A stretch of DNA of 44,503 nt, from IMG/VR virus record IMGVR_UViG_3300020051_000028, positions 1-44,503 of that record. One strand, 5' to 3'. Below the pieces are notes generated by a model. The model saw nothing but the letters and a program-made list of their open reading frames with translations, ran no database searches and was not told the DNA's origin. The DNA comes from a virus. A program made the translations under genes and the position numbers. Position 1 is the stretch's first letter. The number at the start of each line of letters is the position of its first letter. Below, piece by piece: positions 8,936-41,293 of this stretch.

Positions 8936-10387
8936 TTACAGGTAAGTTGAAACAGTAGATGGGGTAAACGCAACACCAAGTCCCTTAACAACGATGATAT
9001 GGTAGTAAAGGTTAGCTCCGAAGATGTTATTCACGATACCATAGCGGGTCATTAGACCAACTCGTGGGGTGAAGTTAACAGGATCGATTGCTCTTTGAAC
9101 CATGATCGGGATATATGGACAGTAGATGATACCAGTATCGTAATACTCAGAACCCTTGTAACCCATTAAGCAGTATTCGACTGAATCAGTGCGAGCAGGA
9201 GAGTATCCATTGCTGCCATATAAGGTTTCATTTTGAGTTTCTGTGCGTGTGTCACGATAGACAGTGAAACGAGATCCTACTGTACCAACTTTAGCGATAC
9301 CAACACCAGCAGTTGAGACTGTGCCGTTGATTTCGAATACCTTGAAGTCGGGAAGCATTTCGAGGATGGAGCAAACGCGAGGAGTGCAGATAACAAAGTT
9401 AGCGGCACCTCTACGGTTACGAGCAGCCATACGACCAGCTTCGATTACAAGGCGTTGATAGAATGTGATATTACGTTCCGCAGTCCAACGACCATCGGCA
9501 CTTACTGGACTCCAAATGGAGATACCAGCACCATAACCAGCGTTAAACGCGGCTTGGATCATGCGCATCACAACTTCACGGTCGATCTCAGCCTGAATTT
9601 CATAAGACATAGCATTGGTAAGCTCGCCATCGATGTCGATGCCTTGCATATTCTTGATATCTTGTTCAAGTTCGATAGACCAACGAGTAGCAAGTCTACG
9701 TGTTCCGGCTTCGACTGAGGTTTTTTCAAACTTCATTTCGATTTGTGGAATACGACCAGTGTTCTCGTAGTTTTGTAGTAATTGCGCAACACCTGAATCT
9801 TGTAAACTGAATGCCCACTCAGCGTGACCACTTAAGGCACCAGAGCTAACACCAGTGAAACGAGTGTCAAGGAGTTGATAGCCAAGTTCTCCAGAAGGAA
9901 GACCAGTATTACCTGTGTATCCTAATCCGGGATTTGTACCACCAGTTCCAACACTTGTTTGTCCAACATGATCGGTTTCATTGAGGAAGGTTGATTGATA
10001 AGCATAACGCAGAGCGAAAGCAAGACCAACCGGACCACCCATCGGTTGAACACCGCAAATCTCGTTGGAGATAAGTTCAGGGAAAGTACGACGAATCATA
10101 GGAATGAGAATCTTAGGAAGGCGGGAGTCACCAGTCGCATAAGTATCACCTTTGACCAAACCTTGTGTGGCTTGGGCATTACCAGTGGCACCAAATAGAC
10201 CAGAAGAACTATTACCTTCTTCGATACACCATCTTTCTTGGTTTTCTAATAGCATCGCAGTTGTCTTGTAGACATGCTCGTTTTGAATGGCTGGGATAGA
10301 ATTACTTTCGTAATCTAGAACCTTAGCCCATTTTTTGACAAGCCCTTGAATTTTGCTTTCGTTACCAGTTTGTGGAATGTTATTCAT
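8936..10387 (-). CDS. 23: Major capsid protein gp23
   Basis: A 483-residue T4 gp23-type major capsid protein. Clear family blocks are PMIRRTFPELISNEICGVQP near residue 100, SIELEQDIKNMQGIDIDGEL, and DGRWTAERNITFYQRLVIEA followed by GRMAARNRRGAANFVICTP. The N-terminal prodomain ends in IEE at 55-57 followed by Gly, fitting the (I/L)-x-E rule of the T4 prohead protease gp21, so maturation by cleavage after Glu57 is likely. T4 gp23 has 521 residues and is cut after residue 65. The gene has a short hairpin in its 5' region and a strong terminator, consistent with high expression. Confidence 0.97.
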   Translation of the reverse strand: MNNIPQTGNESKIQGLVKKWAKVLDYESNSIPAIQNEHVYKTTAMLLENQERWCIEEGNSSSGLFGATGNAQATQGLVKGDTYATGDSRLPKILIPMIRRTFPELISNEICGVQPMGGPVGLAFALRYAYQSTFLNETDHVGQTSVGTGGTNPGLGYTGNTGLPSGELGYQLLDTRFTGVSSGALSGHAEWAFSLQDSGVAQLLQNYENTGRIPQIEMKFEKTSVEAGTRRLATRWSIELEQDIKNMQGIDIDGELTNAMSYEIQAEIDREVVMRMIQAAFNAGYGAGISIWSPVSADGRWTAERNITFYQRLVIEAGRMAARNRRGAANFVICTPRVCSILEMLPDFKVFEINGTVSTAGVGIAKVGTVGSRFTVYRDTRTETQNETLYGSNGYSPARTDSVEYCLMGYKGSEYYDTGIIYCPYIPIMVQRAIDPVNFTPRVGLMTRYGIVNNIFGANLYYHIIVVKGLGVAFTPSTVSTYL

Positions 10388-15443: not shown

Positions 15444-18400
15444 TTAATCTTTGCCTCCATAATTAAGTTCATAAAGATACATGTTTGTAGATCCTGTTGA
15501 TGCTACCAATGTTTTAGCCATTTGCCCAAGAATACCATAACCCATATGTGGAGCCGTTGATGTGTTTCCACTCGCTACATAGGTTACGCTTCCGAGCAAA
15601 ATGGTATCATTTAACCACACATTAAACACACCTCCTGTTTTATGAATTAGTATTCGTGCCAATTTCGTATTTAATGCATCCGTGTTAAGTAATACATTAG
15701 AAATATAATGCGAATTTCCACCACTGGTCCAAGTGCCATTGCCAGTTGATCCGTTTAATGAATATGTGTTATTGTCGATTCTGGTTACGGTCCAAATTCC
15801 ATTTGCAGCAGTGTTTCCAACACAACCATCAATTTCGATTTGATCATTTGTCACAAATCCATGAGAATTCTGAGTGATTACAATCGGAGAAGCATTGGTT
15901 GCCGCAGATATAGCAGCTCTGTAATATGGAAGTCCGAATCCGTGAAAAATTCTAATATCATAGTTTGTAGCAGAAGATCCACTAACAATATAAACTCCAA
16001 GACCGCCATAATTACGAATCATTCCTTCGGTATCAGCATTTCCTGCAAATAATTTAACAAGCTGATTAGTTCTAATCCCTGTGCTGTTAATAGCATATGT
16101 TAGATTGAAAACCCAATCAAACCACATTTCAGACATATCCCACTTAAATTGTGAATATCCGTTAGTAGTGGCAGTTCCTAATGGGCATAAAGATGCTTGC
16201 TGTTCATATGAATAACTCTTAGACCCTAATGTAGTGCCATTGTAACACTGTAAATGAGACGGATTTGATGATGATCCACCGCCACTTGCATGTGATGTTG
16301 ACCATGTTCCACCAACATTACATCTACGATTAATAATATATCCTCGTAATCCAGCATTTACTCTTGGCGTGAGAATAGAATCTAATGATGAATATGTTTG
16401 ACTCGGTGCGGTATTAATCCCACCGCTTAATGTTGTTGTATTCGCAACTGTTAAGTTTTGTATAAGTAAACTATTATCTAATTTAGCAGATGTCACACTA
16501 CCATCCGCAGGAATCATCTGAGAAACCTGCAATGAATTTGTAGGAGAGATAACTACAGCTTTTGAACCACTTGGAAGCGGGCTTGTGAATGTTATGCTTC
16601 CACTCAACACAGTATAATCAACCACGGGTTCTTGTAATGCGCCGTCAATTGCTACAATTAAAGCAGATGGATTGACCAATGTATTTGCTCCACTGATAGC
16701 GAAAGTAGAAAGAACACCGTTACCAGTTAATGTGGTTCTTACTGGATCTACAACAGTTGCTACTTGATTTCCATTTGAATAAATTGGTCCAGTTGCACTG
16801 ATAGTTCCTTGAACAGTAGCATTTCCTTGAACATTAAATCCAGAAAGTTCATATTGCTTAATATCAATAACTGTGATATTGGCAGATAACGCATTAATAA
16901 CGTTTGCTGATAATGAATCAACTATCAAATCTCTAGTATTGCACCAAACATTAGATGAGGCATTGTATGATAATATATCATTAGCACTTAAATTTGTGAT
17001 TTTTACATCATGAAGTTCATTGAGATGATATCCATGCTCTGCTCTTACAAAGAAAATGCGAGTGTTGCCACTCTTAGCAAGAACCATAACAATTGGCATT
17101 TTCTTATCAGGTGCAGTCGGAGGAACTGACGTAAAACGTCCTCGATCTACAGCACTAACATATAAAACAGTTCCAATTTCCCATCCTTGGTTATATGGTA
17201 GTGAATATTCCGGGTCGTCAGATGCTCTTGTGAATTCAACGGAAACATCACGAACCTTACCAAAAGTAGTGATGAATCCATATTCATTTATTGTTAATTC
17301 TTGAGTAGCAACCCCAAGCATATACATTTCATCGGGTCCAGATGCATTCGCTCTATATGCTGAAACTGTTATATTACCAGATCCACTACCAGCAGCACCA
17401 GAAGCATACACCACTTGTCCGTTACGGATAGTTTCGGATGCTTTTACCTGAACCAGTGTTTCTTGTCCTACCTGTAAAGTTACTTCGTCGTTAACACCAA
17501 TGTTTAGAGTTGATTCAGCACTATTCCACGCTAATTGACCTTCGCCAACTGTAACGCCCGCAGCAGTATCAAATTGAATAGAATCAACAGTGGTTATATC
17601 TCCTGTGATAGCCAGATCGCCTGTGATTGTTCCACCAGATAAAGGAAGATAATCACCGGATGGAATTGATAACCCGAGATATTGGGAAGCTGAAATGGAA
17701 CCTACAACCGTAAGATTTCCATTCATAGTTCCACCATCAGCAAATTGTTGAGCTACGGAACCACCACCGGAATATACGGCAATATATTTACGAAGTCTTG
17801 TGACTTCATTATCAACTCTCGCTGTGATCCTTTTATCAACGTCTTTTAAAAGGTCATCAGAATTGATTTTTTGTGGTTTACCTTTCGATTCCACAATATA
17901 CTCAATCGGTTTCTCGTTTTTGAGTTTTCTAAGTTCTTCTATGAGATTATTCCGAGATTCCTGAACCAATCCAATGATATACTTTCGAGTTTCTTCGGTG
18001 ATATTGAAAGTCTTTTCCTCCAACATCTGAAGCTTTTCATTATAGTAATTGGTTATATTTTCTTCAGCTTTTTGAATTTTGGATTCAATATCTTCCGATA
18101 ATGCAATTGTAAGATCGTCAACCTTCTTATCGACATTACCGACTCTTGATAATGATTTGTTAACACCTTTATTGATTCTGTCGTTTAACTCAATATTACC
18201 ATCTCGGATTGCGTCCATCTCTCGATTAATACCTTCCAGTAATGTTTTATCAGCCTTTATATCCAATTTGGATTCTAGATTTTTTTCTATGGTATCTACC
18301 TTTTCCACTATCTCCGTGGCGATATTTTTTAACTCATCATCGATTTTAGGATTGATCGCGGAATACATTTCCTTAACCATTTCCCTGAGTTTGGAGTCAA

Positions 18401-19109
18401 AATCTTTATTCGAATTCTCGAAATTGGCGACCAACGATTCACCCAAAGATACTGCAAGGTCTTGTATCTTATTGTCTATTGTGGTCTGAATTTCATAAAA
18501 TCTCGAATCATTTACATCCACCAATTCATTCTTGATTTTTTGAGAAATCTTAACAAATTCCTCCACCATTTCGTAACGAGCATTATGGAGAGTTTCCTCT
18601 AAAAGCTTTTGCTTATGTTTTGATTCAGCTTGGAGTTCCTTTTGTTTTTGGATTTTTAACTTTTGGACTTCCTTTTTAGCGTTGAGTTTTGCTTTTTCGA
18701 TTTGTTCTAGGATCTCTTTTTTATTATCGATTATATCGATTATTGGAGATTCTTCCTTGGATTCAAATATAGGTTGTAAATTTACCTCTTCGATAGGCGT
18801 GTATTCAACATCTTTGATTATTTCGAAGTTTTCAGCCACATTTTCCATGATATTATTCTCATTGAATAATATTTCTGGTTTACCCTTAGTTAAAACAAAG
18901 GGGTAGAATGACCTTTTACCCTCAATAACTACAGGAACAGATACCACAGGATTTCCATTATGTTCGGAAATCTTTTCTACTGGATACTTGGTCTTGTTTA
19001 TCTCTACCTCATAGACATTGAAGAAAATTTCATTAAAATTTTCAACTTGAAGAATGTTAAGAGGAGAGTCAGTTAAGGTGGGCTTCACCTTTTCGCTAAA
19101 CAATCTCAT
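15444..19109 (-). CDS. Large fibre protein with long coiled-coil stalk
   Basis: A 1221-residue protein, the largest here. Residues 1-120 form an unrecognised head starting MRLFSEKVKPTL. Residues 120-430 are a long Lys/Glu-rich coiled coil. Then come fibre-shaft repeats (GNLTVVGSISASQYLG, LPLSGGTITGDLAITGDI) and, near residues 1080-1150, a beta domain with ATNASPIVITQNSHGF and GNGTWTSGG, common in phage fibres. The C-terminal part looks like a lectin-type beta domain. It is probably a long fibre or head fibre used in host contact. A CTAAATA box and an adjacent AGGAG lie just before the ATG, opening an operon that runs through gp4. Confidence 0.75.
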   Translation of the reverse strand: MRLFSEKVKPTLTDSPLNILQVENFNEIFFNVYEVEINKTKYPVEKISEHNGNPVVSVPVVIEGKRSFYPFVLTKGKPEILFNENNIMENVAENFEIIKDVEYTPIEEVNLQPIFESKEESPIIDIIDNKKEILEQIEKAKLNAKKEVQKLKIQKQKELQAESKHKQKLLEETLHNARYEMVEEFVKISQKIKNELVDVNDSRFYEIQTTIDNKIQDLAVSLGESLVANFENSNKDFDSKLREMVKEMYSAINPKIDDELKNIATEIVEKVDTIEKNLESKLDIKADKTLLEGINREMDAIRDGNIELNDRINKGVNKSLSRVGNVDKKVDDLTIALSEDIESKIQKAEENITNYYNEKLQMLEEKTFNITEETRKYIIGLVQESRNNLIEELRKLKNEKPIEYIVESKGKPQKINSDDLLKDVDKRITARVDNEVTRLRKYIAVYSGGGSVAQQFADGGTMNGNLTVVGSISASQYLGLSIPSGDYLPLSGGTITGDLAITGDITTVDSIQFDTAAGVTVGEGQLAWNSAESTLNIGVNDEVTLQVGQETLVQVKASETIRNGQVVYASGAAGSGSGNITVSAYRANASGPDEMYMLGVATQELTINEYGFITTFGKVRDVSVEFTRASDDPEYSLPYNQGWEIGTVLYVSAVDRGRFTSVPPTAPDKKMPIVMVLAKSGNTRIFFVRAEHGYHLNELHDVKITNLSANDILSYNASSNVWCNTRDLIVDSLSANVINALSANITVIDIKQYELSGFNVQGNATVQGTISATGPIYSNGNQVATVVDPVRTTLTGNGVLSTFAISGANTLVNPSALIVAIDGALQEPVVDYTVLSGSITFTSPLPSGSKAVVISPTNSLQVSQMIPADGSVTSAKLDNSLLIQNLTVANTTTLSGGINTAPSQTYSSLDSILTPRVNAGLRGYIINRRCNVGGTWSTSHASGGGSSSNPSHLQCYNGTTLGSKSYSYEQQASLCPLGTATTNGYSQFKWDMSEMWFDWVFNLTYAINSTGIRTNQLVKLFAGNADTEGMIRNYGGLGVYIVSGSSATNYDIRIFHGFGLPYYRAAISAATNASPIVITQNSHGFVTNDQIEIDGCVGNTAANGIWTVTRIDNNTYSLNGSTGNGTWTSGGNSHYISNVLLNTDALNTKLARILIHKTGGVFNVWLNDTILLGSVTYVASGNTSTAPHMGYGILGQMAKTLVASTGSTNMYLYELNYGGKD

Positions 19110-36675: not shown

Positions 36676-37179
36676 TCACTTTTTAACAACTTTATTTTTA
36701 TATTTTCCTTTTAAAGGAACATTCAATTTGGATGTATCTTGCGCAGATGTATTAACAATCTTGAATTGATTGTCTTTATTGAAAATGAAGCTAATGTTTC
36801 TCTTCGGATCACCATAGGGTTTTCCGTTTGCATTGTGTCCTATAATTCTAGATCCGACAACAACATTATTTTTACCCGATTTTGTTATTCCCTTTCTTTG
36901 ATCCATAACATAACCAGCGTCTAATAAAATATCGCTATATGCTTTTAAAAGTCCTCCAGACCCCACATCATAACCTTGTCTAAGGGAGTCTCCAATATCC
37001 CTCATACCTCTTTCCAATCCATGTAAAGGTTTTGTCACTTCGGGAGCGACGTAATCTAAAGCCTTTGCACCACCTTTAATCGCGGCACCAACCAATCCAC
37101 CAGCAACTCTTGCTGGTGCAGCAATATTTCTCCAAAATCCTTCGTCTAATATTTCGGTTTGTGATAATTTACGCGACAT
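36676..37179 (-). CDS. Hypothetical late protein, possible head-internal protein
   Basis: A 167-residue protein with a leader-like start (MSRKLSQTEILDE followed by Gly, an L-x-E site), an Ala/Gly-rich helix (ARVAGGLVGAAIKGGAKALD) and a basic beta-type C-terminus. The helix could contact membranes or pack in the capsid. The ATG lies inside the end of the endonuclease gene before it (11-base overlap); a TTAAATA box sits 27 bases upstream inside that gene. The function is unknown. Confidence 0.65.
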   Translation of the reverse strand: MSRKLSQTEILDEGFWRNIAAPARVAGGLVGAAIKGGAKALDYVAPEVTKPLHGLERGMRDIGDSLRQGYDVGSGGLLKAYSDILLDAGYVMDQRKGITKSGKNNVVVGSRIIGHNANGKPYGDPKRNISFIFNKDNQFKIVNTSAQDTSKLNVPLKGKYKNKVVKK

Positions 37180-37927
37180 TTACTTCGATCCCTTTCTCAG
37201 CTACATTATTTAACCCAACATCTACTGGAGTAATGATTGATAATTTCCTTCTAAGTCTAGCTACCCTCAATTTTTCTCTGGTTTCATCGGAATGTTTAAA
37301 CCCTAGAGCGTTGCTATTCCCCTTCCTAGACATACTCATTTTAGCCTTGGCTTCTTCTGATAGTTTTGTTCCCAATCTAATTTGTTTGAGTTTTTCTCTA
37401 GATTCAATAGACATTTTTTTACCCAAATTAAGTTGTCTCATTTTTTCCTTATGTTCTTCGCTGTGAGGTTTTCCGTATTTACCTAGTCTGGATTGTCTTA
37501 TTTTTTCCTTTGTTTCTTCTGAATGTTTTCGACCGATTTGCCCCAAACTTATATTTCTTTTAGTTTTCTCAGAACTTTTGACTCCAGTTCTATCATTAGA
37601 GGATTTGCATATGTTGTAACCGTTTTTAGGATTTGCAGAGTCGAATAATTCTATATAATACTTCTCCTTTTCTAAAAGAATTTCATTATCCTTCAATTTA
37701 TTGAAATCTTTCATAATTTCTAATATTTCAATATTGAAAGAATTCCATCCATGTTTTATTATAGCATTTTCGAAATAATAACGACCATTAGATTTTTTTT
37801 CACAACTTTTATGACAACTTAATCTGTAATAGATATTCACCGATTTACCTATATAAATTTTTCCATTATTGATGCAAGTCAATTTATATACACCAGCTTC
37901 TTTGGGATATTTTATATTATTTTTCAT
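37169..37927 (-). CDS. GIY-YIG homing endonuclease with NUMOD3 repeats
   Basis: A 252-residue free-standing homing endonuclease. The GIY-YIG domain has GVYKL at 12-16 and KIYIGKS at 23-29, with Arg35 and an NGYN element later. Residues 115-235 hold five DNA-binding NUMOD3-like repeats, each with a (H/M/L)SxExxxKxxxxxxG pattern, for example GRKHSEETKEKIRQSRLGK. It fits in the operon without gaps: its ATG overlaps the previous TGA and its 3' end overlaps the next start by 11 bases. Its last codons cover a late box, suggesting insertion between a promoter and its gene. Confidence 0.92.
   Translation of the reverse strand: MKNNIKYPKEAGVYKLTCINNGKIYIGKSVNIYYRLSCHKSCEKKSNGRYYFENAIIKHGWNSFNIEILEIMKDFNKLKDNEILLEKEKYYIELFDSANPKNGYNICKSSNDRTGVKSSEKTKRNISLGQIGRKHSEETKEKIRQSRLGKYGKPHSEEHKEKMRQLNLGKKMSIESREKLKQIRLGTKLSEEAKAKMSMSRKGNSNALGFKHSDETREKLRVARLRRKLSIITPVDVGLNNVAEKGIEVNVA
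37207..37213 (-). promoter_or_regulatory. Late-promoter-like box TTAAATA inside the endonuclease gene
   Basis: Lies in the last codons of the GIY-YIG gene, 27 bases before the ATG at 37179, further away than the usual 5-8. Confidence 0.45.
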
Positions 37928-38364
37928 ATATCCACTTCCAAGTTTTTCCCGGCTACATCCACTAATGAAACATCTATTAGTGCATCTAAATGTTGGTGAA
38001 TGAAATTCTTACCAATGAGAATTTTGTGACTATTTTCGGATCGATTTCCGATTGAAAATGGAACATCTTTAAATATCTTATTCCCAAATTTCACATCAAA
38101 TAAAACCACAGGTCTTTCCTCTTTGTTACCAGCACCCAAATTAATAGTAATGGTGTCAACCAATTCCTTTTCGACATTCATACCACCTTCTGTGGTGAAC
38201 CTGACCAACTTTCCATCGGATTGAATGTCCTCACCATGTAAAACATTAAAGGCACCATTACCAGAATCCAATTTAGCTTTGATTGGTCCAATACCATTCA
38301 AAGTGATGATCTCCTCAAGACCAACCACCAATTTTTCCACGAAAAATTGTTTAAATGTTACCAT
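37924..38364 (-). CDS. Retropepsin-like aspartic protease (RimB/zinc-protease-like)
   Basis: A 146-residue protein. IKAKLDSGNGAFNVLHGEDI resembles the D(S/T)G active-site region of single-domain retropepsins, and ERPVVLFDVKFGNKIF plus GNRSENSHKILIGKNFI matches the second half of the ATP-dependent zinc protease/RimB family (RSxxxxxxLIGxxF). Such enzymes work as dimers. The first ten residues, MVTFKQFFVE, closely resemble the T4 capsid-targeting leader MKTYQEFIAE, so it may be packaged in the head and clipped by gp21. TAATG couples it to the gene before. Confidence 0.7.
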   Translation of the reverse strand: MVTFKQFFVEKLVVGLEEIITLNGIGPIKAKLDSGNGAFNVLHGEDIQSDGKLVRFTTEGGMNVEKELVDTITINLGAGNKEERPVVLFDVKFGNKIFKDVPFSIGNRSENSHKILIGKNFIHQHLDALIDVSLVDVAGKNLEVDI

Positions 38365-39598: not shown

Positions 39599-39605
39599 TA
39601 TTTAA
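39599..39605 (-). promoter_or_regulatory. Late-promoter-like box TTAAATA
   Basis: Five bases before the ATG at 39593; the stop of the upstream gene is inside the box. Confidence 0.6.
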
Positions 39606-40141
39606 TACATCAGGGTCATCTTATTTGCCACCTGATCGAAATGATCCTTTATATCTTTTAGTCCCGTTTTTTCCAAATATTTCTTAATATGTTTGAAAGT
39701 CTTTGGTTTGGTATCTTTTTCAAAAAAAACTTTCAGTTTTGGAATTATTTCCCCATCAAATCTTTCAAATCTTTCAATTACTTCTGAAAAATCCATAACA
39801 TCCTCCATTATTTTGAATCCAAATATGGATTTTAATTTTCTCAACAGAGAATTTCGAAACGGGTCTTTTGTTAAAAAATTACTATAAAAACATAATTTAT
39901 AATTCGAATCCTGCCTAATGATATGGTCACATACTGTTTTTATGAAAGCATGTGAATATATTACTTTATTATATTTTTTGGAAAAGTCGAAGGTTGCATC
40001 AATAAACATATCCTTCAGAATTTGAGCAAAGAATATATTGGTATGTTTAAAGATTAAGTCAATATCAGTAAAAATTATACGATCATCATGTAAAATGAGC
40101 TTAGTGTAATTCTCCTCTGTTATAGTTTCGTAATCGTTCAT
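39602..40141 (-). CDS. Hypothetical protein
   Basis: A 179-residue protein from the ATG at 40141, which overlaps the TGA of the 64-residue gene before it (ATGA). The same frame stays open further upstream to a TTG at 40279, but that part overlaps the 64-residue gene in another frame. The product is helical with several Phe/Tyr-rich stretches and an internal YSHAFIKTVCDHIIRQDSN; I do not recognise it. The end overlaps the box of the next gene. Confidence 0.6.
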   Translation of the reverse strand: MNDYETITEENYTKLILHDDRIIFTDIDLIFKHTNIFFAQILKDMFIDATFDFSKKYNKVIYSHAFIKTVCDHIIRQDSNYKLCFYSNFLTKDPFRNSLLRKLKSIFGFKIMEDVMDFSEVIERFERFDGEIIPKLKVFFEKDTKPKTFKHIKKYLEKTGLKDIKDHFDQVANKMTLMY

Positions 40142-40332
40142 ATCTCTATAAGATTCATATAAAATATTTGACCAGTTGGACCATCCATAGGTCTTACAGT
40201 TATTAATTCTTTGCTTAAATCTGGGAAATTTTTCCAAACATTGCCTATACGAATCCATCTGTTTTTTACTATAGACCAACCCAATTGCCTATGTATTTGT
40301 CTTTTTGCCCTGTTTTTATAATGTTTATTCAT
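40138..40332 (-). CDS. 64-residue protein carrying a gp23-like signature
   Basis: The start overlaps the preceding endonuclease stop (TAATG) and the stop overlaps the next start (ATGA), so it fits the operon on both sides. After a basic start (HYKNRAKRQIHRQLGWS) it reads NFPDLSKELITVRP then MDGPTGQIFYM. This resembles the conserved gp23 block, present in the capsid protein of this phage as TFPELISNEICGVQPMGGPV followed by GLAFAL. It could be a small separate protein, or a remnant of a second capsid-type gene. The function is unknown. Confidence 0.55.
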   Translation of the reverse strand: MNKHYKNRAKRQIHRQLGWSIVKNRWIRIGNVWKNFPDLSKELITVRPMDGPTGQIFYMNLIEI

Positions 40333-40772
40333 TATAAATTCAGCATATCAGGCGTTCTTTTGATGTCAACATAATCTTTTGGAAATTTACCCAATCTGGC
40401 ATTTACAATAGAATTGTAAAATTTCTCATCAAACAAAACACCACATTTAATTTGCCAATCAAGTTCCGCGTATTTCATATGAAATTTAGAATTACACAAT
40501 TCTACTACTTCTCTTGTAAAGTAATTTATTCCATATTTTTGAATATCTTCTAATAATTGTTTAGAACTTCCCCAATAATTTTGCAAATCATTATCCCTCC
40601 ATACAATTTTGTCCCTTTTTCTACTTTTATTAGCTTTTAATCTAGTTTTTTTGAGTATTTGTTTTATACCTATATAATATTTTTTAACACTGTCTGGATG
40701 ATTATTTCTAATTAAGTAAACAATTCCCATATAATCAGTAATATTCTCAGGCAATCCTATCCAATCACTCAC
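40332..40772 (-). CDS. GIY-YIG endonuclease (Seg-like)
   Basis: A 146-residue GIY-YIG protein with GIVYLI at 16-21 and KYYIGIK at 31-37, followed by LQNYWGSSKQLLEDIQKYGI and FTREVVELC, the layout of small phage endonucleases related to Seg proteins. No separate DNA-binding domain follows, so it may bind through its C-terminal helix. The start is a GTG, five bases after an ATAAATA box. The gene sits between two genes that carry parts of the capsid signature. Confidence 0.85.
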   Translation of the reverse strand: MSDWIGLPENITDYMGIVYLIRNNHPDSVKKYYIGIKQILKKTRLKANKSRKRDKIVWRDNDLQNYWGSSKQLLEDIQKYGINYFTREVVELCNSKFHMKYAELDWQIKCGVLFDEKFYNSIVNARLGKFPKDYVDIKRTPDMLNL

Positions 40773-40777
40773 AATTT

Positions 40778-40784
40778 TATTTAT
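40778..40784 (-). promoter_or_regulatory. Late-promoter-like box ATAAATA
   Basis: Five bases before the GTG start at 40772 of the Seg-like endonuclease; supports the GTG start. Confidence 0.6.
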
Positions 40785-40855
40785 TAAACTGTCAAATGGA
40801 AATTATTTTCAACTTTTTTCAATTTACCCCCTTGACATTTTAAAATAGTAAATTA

Positions 40856-40879
40856 GGTAGGGGTGGTGGGCGGGCTTGG
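40856..40879 (+). other. G-rich tract with quadruplex potential
   Basis: The core GGGGTGGTGGGCGGG at 40860-40874, with GG on either side, is a rare G-rich block in an AT-rich genome. It has at least four G runs of two or more, so a two-layer quadruplex is possible. Confidence 0.5.
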
Positions 40880-40910
40880 TACAAGATATAATTAATAATA
40901 AATCATAATC

Positions 40911-40930
40911 TATTATTATTAATAATAATA
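40911..40930. repeat. 20-bp perfect AT palindrome flanked by direct repeats
   Basis: TATTATTATT followed by its exact reverse complement. It is bordered by AATCATAATC on the left (40901-40910) and AATCTTAATC on the right (40931-40940), which match in nine of ten bases. Confidence 0.8.
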
Positions 40931-40944
40931 AATCTTAATCAATG

Positions 40945-40993
40945 TACAATAATAAAGATTTACAGTGTTCGTCGCGAAGCGACTATTATTGTA
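40945..40993. repeat. Nested inverted repeat with GC hairpin
   Basis: Outer arms TACAATAATA (40945-40954) and TATTATTGTA (40984-40993) enclose a hairpin GTCGC-GAA-GCGAC at 40971-40983 placed next to the right arm. The base-rich hairpin is not followed by a T run, so a terminator is less likely than a protein- or replication-linked structure. Confidence 0.7.
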
Positions 40994-41020
40994 ATTATAG
41001 TGAACCCAAAAATCAAAAAG

Positions 41021-41275
41021 TCAAGAAACTTTTTTCGATTTTTTCTTCTTTTTCTTCACCAAACCTTTTCTGGATAAAATATCACCTCCGAAAATCGATT
41101 TAGGGATTCTTTGATCCCCGGTGGCATAGTTATCCCCATTGGGTTCCCCTAGATCCTCTACAGAAGCTTGGGGGCTACCAAACAACCCCCCTGCACTTGC
41201 ACTCATGTCTTCACAAATCTGATCGTAAAGATCCGCAAGTTTTTTCTCTTCAATGGTTGACAATCGCAGACTCAT
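41021..41275 (-). CDS. Small protein sharing an N-terminal gp23 signature
   Basis: An 84-residue protein. Its middle, GGLFGSPQASVEDL then GDNYATGDQRIPK, parallels the capsid protein text SGLFGATGNAQATQ then GDTYATGDSRLPK over about 38 residues. It ends in a Lys-rich tail (KKKKKKSKK). The first 20 residues end in QICE before Asp, fitting an I-x-E prohead protease site. A TTAAATA box lies seven bases before the ATG. It may be a small head protein using a shared capsid motif, or part of a displaced capsid gene. Confidence 0.65.
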   Translation of the reverse strand: MSLRLSTIEEKKLADLYDQICEDMSASAGGLFGSPQASVEDLGEPNGDNYATGDQRIPKSIFGGDILSRKGLVKKKKKKSKKVS

Positions 41276-41282
41276 ATAGTAT

Positions 41283-41289
41283 TATTTAA
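41283..41289 (-). promoter_or_regulatory. Late-promoter-like box TTAAATA
   Basis: Seven bases before the ATG at 41275, in the 18-base gap to the divergent YopX gene. Confidence 0.6.
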
Positions 41290-41293
41290 TGAT

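Follow-up and report, generated by a model that had tools for sequence, protein, structure and literature searches.

Why should a T4-like phage with an intact major capsid gene also encode, around a homing endonuclease, two short genes that repeat successive parts of the same capsid protein? The original prediction raised this question for the window (the whole 44,503-base stretch, an IMG/VR virus record), and its observational part was borne out: BLASTP and profile searches place gp23 segments 55-95 and 94-127 in an 84-residue and a 64-residue protein, copied in register from Gp23 (PF07068, phrog_138) and lying in gp23 order with a Seg-like GIY-YIG endonuclease (PF19835) between them, and the intact gp23 had been located correctly as well (Table 1). 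In contrast to Gp23, neither small protein contains a full-length HK97-type shell domain; their gp23 segments span just about 25-41 residues and are accompanied by extra non-capsid parts. The gp23-like blocks share only 42-54% DNA identity with gp23 of the same genome or clade, which rules out recent copying, and a recent gp23 copy was rejected as their source. The AlphaFold model of gp23 is poor (pLDDT 53) and was set aside.

Table 1. Coordinates of the features in the window and carriers of gp23 segments in other genomes
Feature	Position	Strand	Evidence or orthologs
Intact gp23 major capsid gene	8936..10387	-	Pfam Gp23 286.6 bits; T4 gp23 structures matched
gp23 segment 94-127, counterpart of the 64-mer copy	10007..10108	-	gp23 profiles
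gp23 segment 55-95, counterpart of the 84-mer copy	10103..10225	-	clade gp23 profile
Conserved 179-residue gene without family match, ATGA overlap with 64-mer	39602..40141	-	orthologs
64-residue gene: N-terminal part basic, C-terminal half gp23-like	40138..40332	-	profiles; orthologs L004:6956-7168, L002:8519-8764, L145:3661-3873(-)
gp23-like block of 64-mer, residues 35-60 (T4 gp23 ~102-128)	40153..40230	-	gp23 profiles, stacking
SegE-like GIY-YIG homing endonuclease, GTG start	40332..40772	-	PF19835 69.3 bits (cut-off 25), E 4.7e-19
Late-promoter-like AATAAATA ahead of endonuclease/64-mer operon	40778..40785	-	
Hairpin GTCGC-nnn-GCGAC after 84-mer gene	40971..40983		alignment: relatives keep stem, loop altered
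84-residue gene with Lys-rich tail and gp23-like middle (55-95); MSASAGGLFG preceded by candidate prohead-protease site IxE|D	41021..41275	-	profile, alignment, orthologs
gp23-like segment of 84-mer (gp23 residues 55-95)	41093..41215	-	clade gp23 profile, E 2.8e-6
Late-promoter-like ATTAAATA, 15 bases ahead of 84-mer start	41283..41290	-	
Basic minis with gp23 block			IMG/VR pattern search
Tat-like 90/91-mers with gp23 block	L019, L023		IMG/VR pattern search
Membrane-type 135-mer with gp23 block	L020		IMG/VR pattern search
CTS-type 454/484-residue head protein with gp23 block	L018, L022		IMG/VR pattern search
60-mer after gene 43 with gp23 segment	G009		searches without Asn constraint
125-mer and 76-mer with gp23 segments	L145		searches without Asn constraint
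Small N-domain proteins with gp23 Gol-type tail, named 'major head protein'	L196:3199-3621, L197:2904-3329, L201:1501-1887 and kin		

In the 84-mer, GLFG followed by GDNYATGDQRIPK stands against GLFG followed by GDTYATGDSRLPK in gp23, the resemblance that had first drawn attention to this gene. It was recovered by BLASTP against the gp23 of a relative (2.8e-6) and by a clade gp23 profile, which among 511 small ORFs aligns with it over profile positions 55-95 at E 2.8e-6, whereas a general profile of 89 gp23 sequences misses the protein; the Pfam search gave no match for it, and since only clade-specific gp23 profiles detect it, the evidence is limited to the clade. Orthologs are present in L002, L004 and L017, with a distant one in L145, and the dN/dS of 0.05-0.21 against orthologs places the gene under purifying selection. 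Ahead of the presumed mature part, the family carries a cleavage motif of the (I/L)xE type (ICE|D, ILE|D and LVE|M in orthologs), a candidate IxE|D site shared with prohead-processed head proteins, gp23 itself having CIEE|G. We favour a late head protein that is probably cut at the candidate site, the new end of which would resemble the mature gp23 end; the 84-mer would then occupy the docking place of the gp23 N-arm and turn its Lys-rich tail to the DNA.

The 64-mer, or mini-gp23, takes up the next gp23 block, with KNFPDLSKELITVRPMDGPTGQIFYMN corresponding to RRTFPELISNEICGVQPMGGPVGLAFALR in gp23. Taken alone, its match to Pfam Gp23 is weak (14.9 bits against a cut-off of 24.4), while a profile of 89 gp23 sequences recognises it with E 8e-5 (Z=1000), or 9.5e-4 among 11,561 frames, and its syntenic ortholog in L004 exceeds the Pfam cut-off by itself (24.8 bits, E 1.2e-6), so that the second match of the original prediction is sustained too; the L002 ortholog reaches 8.3e-4. 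The mini orthologs are only 34-46% identical, with PM..P.G..F..N kept in all, and when three minis are combined in a profile, its top match is the distant ortholog of L145 (3.8e-10), the real gp23 genes coming next at about 1e-6. Because dS is saturated for the minis and yields no clean dN/dS ratio, the case for selection on the 64-mer rests on this conserved pattern. The AlphaFold model of the L004 mini scored low (64): a basic helix over residues 3-38 is confident, and the gp23 block is not confidently placed.

Each of the two genes has been kept at the locus in related uncultured phages, the synteny proposed as a check on the prediction. Among the IMG/VR relatives, L004 and the distant L145 retain the 84-mer, a SegE-like gene, the mini-gp23 gene and the 179-mer, and the segment order around the endonuclease is the same in the window and in both of them; the 179-mer is 75% identical in L004 and L002, with a dN/dS of 0.06. 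In L002, to which a stretch of L003 is identical, the flanking genes and the mini are present, with other endonucleases in opposite orientation between them; the intervening gene of the window fits the SegE-like GIY-YIG family (PF19835), varies among relatives and is taken here as a mobile neighbour with no part in the function. The mini was lost in L017 and G009, its presence thus differing between relatives. A breakpoint between L002 and L004 was put by BLAST upstream of the gp23-like block, but base-level alignment places it close to the mini gene's 3' end. In the window, the 64-mer is predicted to be coupled in translation to both of its neighbours: the endonuclease stop TAA overlaps the ATG of the 64-mer (TAATG) and the TGA of the 64-mer overlaps the ATG of the 179-mer (ATGA). 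TAAATA, which forms the T4 late-promoter core, lies shortly upstream of 16 of the 35 minus-strand gene starts (0.34 expected), including those of the 84-mer and of the endonuclease/64-mer operon, and both operons look late and stand among genes for CTS-like head proteins. The 64-mer and the 84-mer were thus shown to be two distinct small genes, both conserved, in which a gp23 segment is combined with non-capsid sequence, and locus conservation, purifying selection on the 84-mer and the late-promoter-like sites together argue for working small genes rather than debris.

Copies of gp23 segments are also found far from this locus. Among the 11,561 frames, forward gp23 profiles returned 13-18 fragment frames at E<=1 and reversed profiles none, so the profile scores are better than random, a point on which the original prediction could have failed. 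Across 64 large-protein families, partial copies in small ORFs number five for gp23 and two for the next family. The pattern PM..P.G..F.[LM]N, which has Asn at the gp23 Arg/Lys site, retrieved 11 IMG/VR stretches, all of them gp23-like ORFs other than gp23; nearly the same pattern gave two unrelated chance matches in bacterial genomes, and once Lys was accepted at the R128 site, nearly every match was a true gp23 gene. These searches, together with those run free of the Asn constraint, showed that T4-like phages have on several occasions attached the gp23 segment of the 64-mer (about T4 100-128) to unrelated small proteins. Other segments are copied in G006 (T4 247-299 and 284-326), and the ORF with a gp23 segment at the start of this genome is membrane-type. 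Over 15 residues, the G009 60-mer and the gp23 of that genome are identical while 10 of the 15 codons differ, which is suggestive of selection; as import from the gp23 of another phage would look alike, it was not counted. A PADLOC search gave weak scattered matches only. We found no description of such capsid-segment proteins in the openly licensed literature, and they apparently form an undescribed, recurrent class of small genes that reuse capsid segments.

Cultured phages carry a related family. Pfam Gp23 matches small genes in the Aeromonas phages Aeh1 (4.3e-8) and phiAS5 (1.6e-7), neither gene coding for a shell domain, and tblastn with Aeh1p187 gave 39 records from Aeromonas, Citrobacter, Cronobacter and Vibrio phages, of which some at the weak end are capsid genes themselves; with the consensus tail, tblastn listed mostly gp23 itself. 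Aeh1p187, phiAS5 ORF0311 and Merlin gp284 belong to phrog_12830, and phages PX29 and Moon also have such proteins. The family joins an N-domain (MSxPSxAxF..CFINCGW) to a tail, (K/R)xxxPxLIAxxIxGVQPM, that matches T4 gp23 100-117, has a tail dN/dS of 0.04-0.36 and lacks the tail in its KVP40 and S13 members. The name 'major head protein' given to it in RefSeq and phrog_12830 is evidently a naming error due to the gp23 tail. Its genes lie in a tRNA cluster in Aeh1, Ah1, avDM12, D479, S13 and Ci1, and in Merlin next to asiA and an anti-restriction gene (arn), either of which is an early-gene setting. Like the window 64-mer, these proteins are small with a gp23 block at the end; unlike them, the 64-mer has no MSxPSxAxFxKNG..CFINCGW domain, stands in a different genomic setting and gave no match to phrog_12830, its L004 ortholog matching weakly on the tail side (E 0.028).

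Which part of gp23 has been copied bears on what the copies may do. The copied tails, stacked on the gp23 profile, cover T4 residues of about 96-128 with a common core at 100-117, and we take the Gol peptide to lie at about T4 gp23 93-122. With this placement, the copied stretch (about 100-128) would correspond to the EF-Tu/Lit-activating Gol peptide, the core RxxxPxLIAxxIxGVQPM being the 100-117 part of it. Within our gp23 set, T4 108-127 shares first place in conservation among 20-residue windows, and 92-111 ranks near the top too. The Gol region, which is conserved more strongly than any other part of gp23, comprises 29 residues with a 20-residue core, binds domains II-III of EF-Tu, inhibits its GTPase and enables Lit to cleave it (PMC3014915). 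In contrast to T4 Gol, the copies, as putative EF-Tu binders, sit in free-standing small proteins in which the aromatic F109 is replaced. The F109 position is aromatic in 86 of 89 gp23s, a marine-weighted set, and in none of 19 copies; Aeh1 and phiAS5 have F here in gp23 and E/A in the small proteins. As the gp23 of the window clade has N instead of an aromatic residue at this position, the signature may reflect ancestry rather than selection. The contrast at R128 was left unused as selection-biased, because the gp23 set had been gathered with a pattern requiring Lys/Asn there.

On sequence evidence, we lean, by a modest degree, towards the small proteins being gp23 peptide mimics that bind the partner of the copied segment. 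The copied segment would bind whatever the same segment binds in gp23, and the non-capsid rest would set when and where; for the Gol-type block of the 64-mer and its kin, we think the partner more likely to be on the host side, either EF-Tu or a defence protein that senses capsids, whose site the mimic would fill while leaving activation incomplete. Capsid-sensing defences do exist (PMC9712102, PMC11312562). A more specific and tentative proposal, to which we give perhaps one chance in a few, is that T4-like phages widely encode free Gol copies with changes at F109/D110, which would serve as decoys by occupying EF-Tu or immune proteins that sense the capsid and leaving them untriggered; some phages would express them early, and others would have them fused to basic, membrane or exported partners; copies of other gp23 segments in G006 and G002 mean that a pure Gol account falls short. 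Within the mimic reading, host-side and capsid-assembly partners are close rivals, and the late-looking operons among CTS-like head-protein genes would suit an assembly role as well. That version, which we consider possible but clearly less probable than mimicry at large, has both proteins entering or regulating the head, with the copied segment docking on a neighbouring gp23, gp24 or portal in the manner of an N-arm: the late-promoter-like sites, neighbours with CTS-like starts, the IxE|D of the 84-mer family resembling gp23 CIEE|G and the block in a CTS-type 454/484-residue protein agree with it, but the cultured family lies in an early-gene setting (tRNA clusters or asiA/anti-restriction) and has no CTS-like starts, and other copies are membrane-type or Tat-like. 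Of the proposal that these are small head proteins reusing capsid motifs, the reuse is therefore upheld by the conserved own parts, the orthologs and the recurrence, whereas the head part has only indirect support, mainly for the 84-mer.

As regards origin, the 55-95 and 94-127 segments adjoin each other at roughly gp23 codon 95, on either side of the SegE-like gene, as would suit an insertion near that codon in an ancestor, and both may come from one gp23 piece split there by, or carried with, a homing endonuclease. A second GIY-YIG/NUMOD3 endonuclease of the window (37169-37927, minus strand) ends in DVGLNNVAEKGIEVNVA, the 3' end of the neighbouring gene in G009, where no endonuclease follows; the protease-like neighbour (37924-38364, minus strand) has had its 3' end replaced in the window, and G009, free of the insertion, shows the original form. 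As the C-terminus of this endonuclease carries the old 3' end of its neighbour (DVGLNNVAEKGIEVNV), in-frame capture of parts of target genes happens in these genomes. Such capture accounts for the origin of the segments, not for their retention. Consequently, the originally suggested splitting of a second capsid gene by an endonuclease survives as a possible origin. Readings without function fare worse, and that the two genes are functionless remnants of such a gene is quite improbable: the abutment in gp23 order and the captured 3' end would agree with this, against which stand the dN/dS of the 84-mer, the conserved non-capsid parts, copies elsewhere with no adjoining endonuclease and the failure of gp23 profiles to find gp23 130-483, the remainder of a second copy, at this locus. 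An intron-split gp23 is unsupported, the Rfam search having found no intron. We also regard it as unlikely that endonucleases cutting the conserved gp23 gene have picked up pieces of it time and again, mostly without selective effect, and that the ORFs are short-lived chimeras; endonuclease turnover, with a broken window-type SegE start in L002, the variable presence of the mini and the position of T4 segD next to gene 23 speak for it, but the cultured family retains its tail across wide divergence, the copies have residues in common that most gp23s lack, and gp23 pieces far outnumber pieces of other conserved genes. That short ORFs resemble gp23 by chance, to which the sub-threshold Pfam score of the 64-mer might point, is refuted by the empty reversed-profile searches and the L004 ortholog, and is hardly conceivable.

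The proteins of Aeh1, phiAS5, PX29, Merlin and Moon make the conservation of Gol, and what it may do with EF-Tu beyond Lit exclusion, testable outside the capsid, and as several defences sense capsid proteins, dispersed capsid-segment genes would be natural decoy candidates; at a minimum, the 'major head protein' records for these proteins need correction.

Several further observations were made along the way. The stretch L002:6495-8395 holds a degenerate start of the window-type SegE followed by two endonuclease genes in opposite orientation, a trace of endonuclease turnover. L159 (G006) has three small ORFs (1-396, 622-1029 and 18341-18697) with three different conserved gp23 segments, two of the three being membrane-type. 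A short ORF before uvsX in G002 (L168:1623-1904) ends in ETLGYELINTRFTGLST, which matches gp23 176-193. Finally, the 76-mer at L145:6757-6984 contains IPKILLPKVRREFPELIAIEI, after which comes a stretch similar to the gp23 propeptide (KWxxVL..AMLIE), an order that looks like a permutation of segments.
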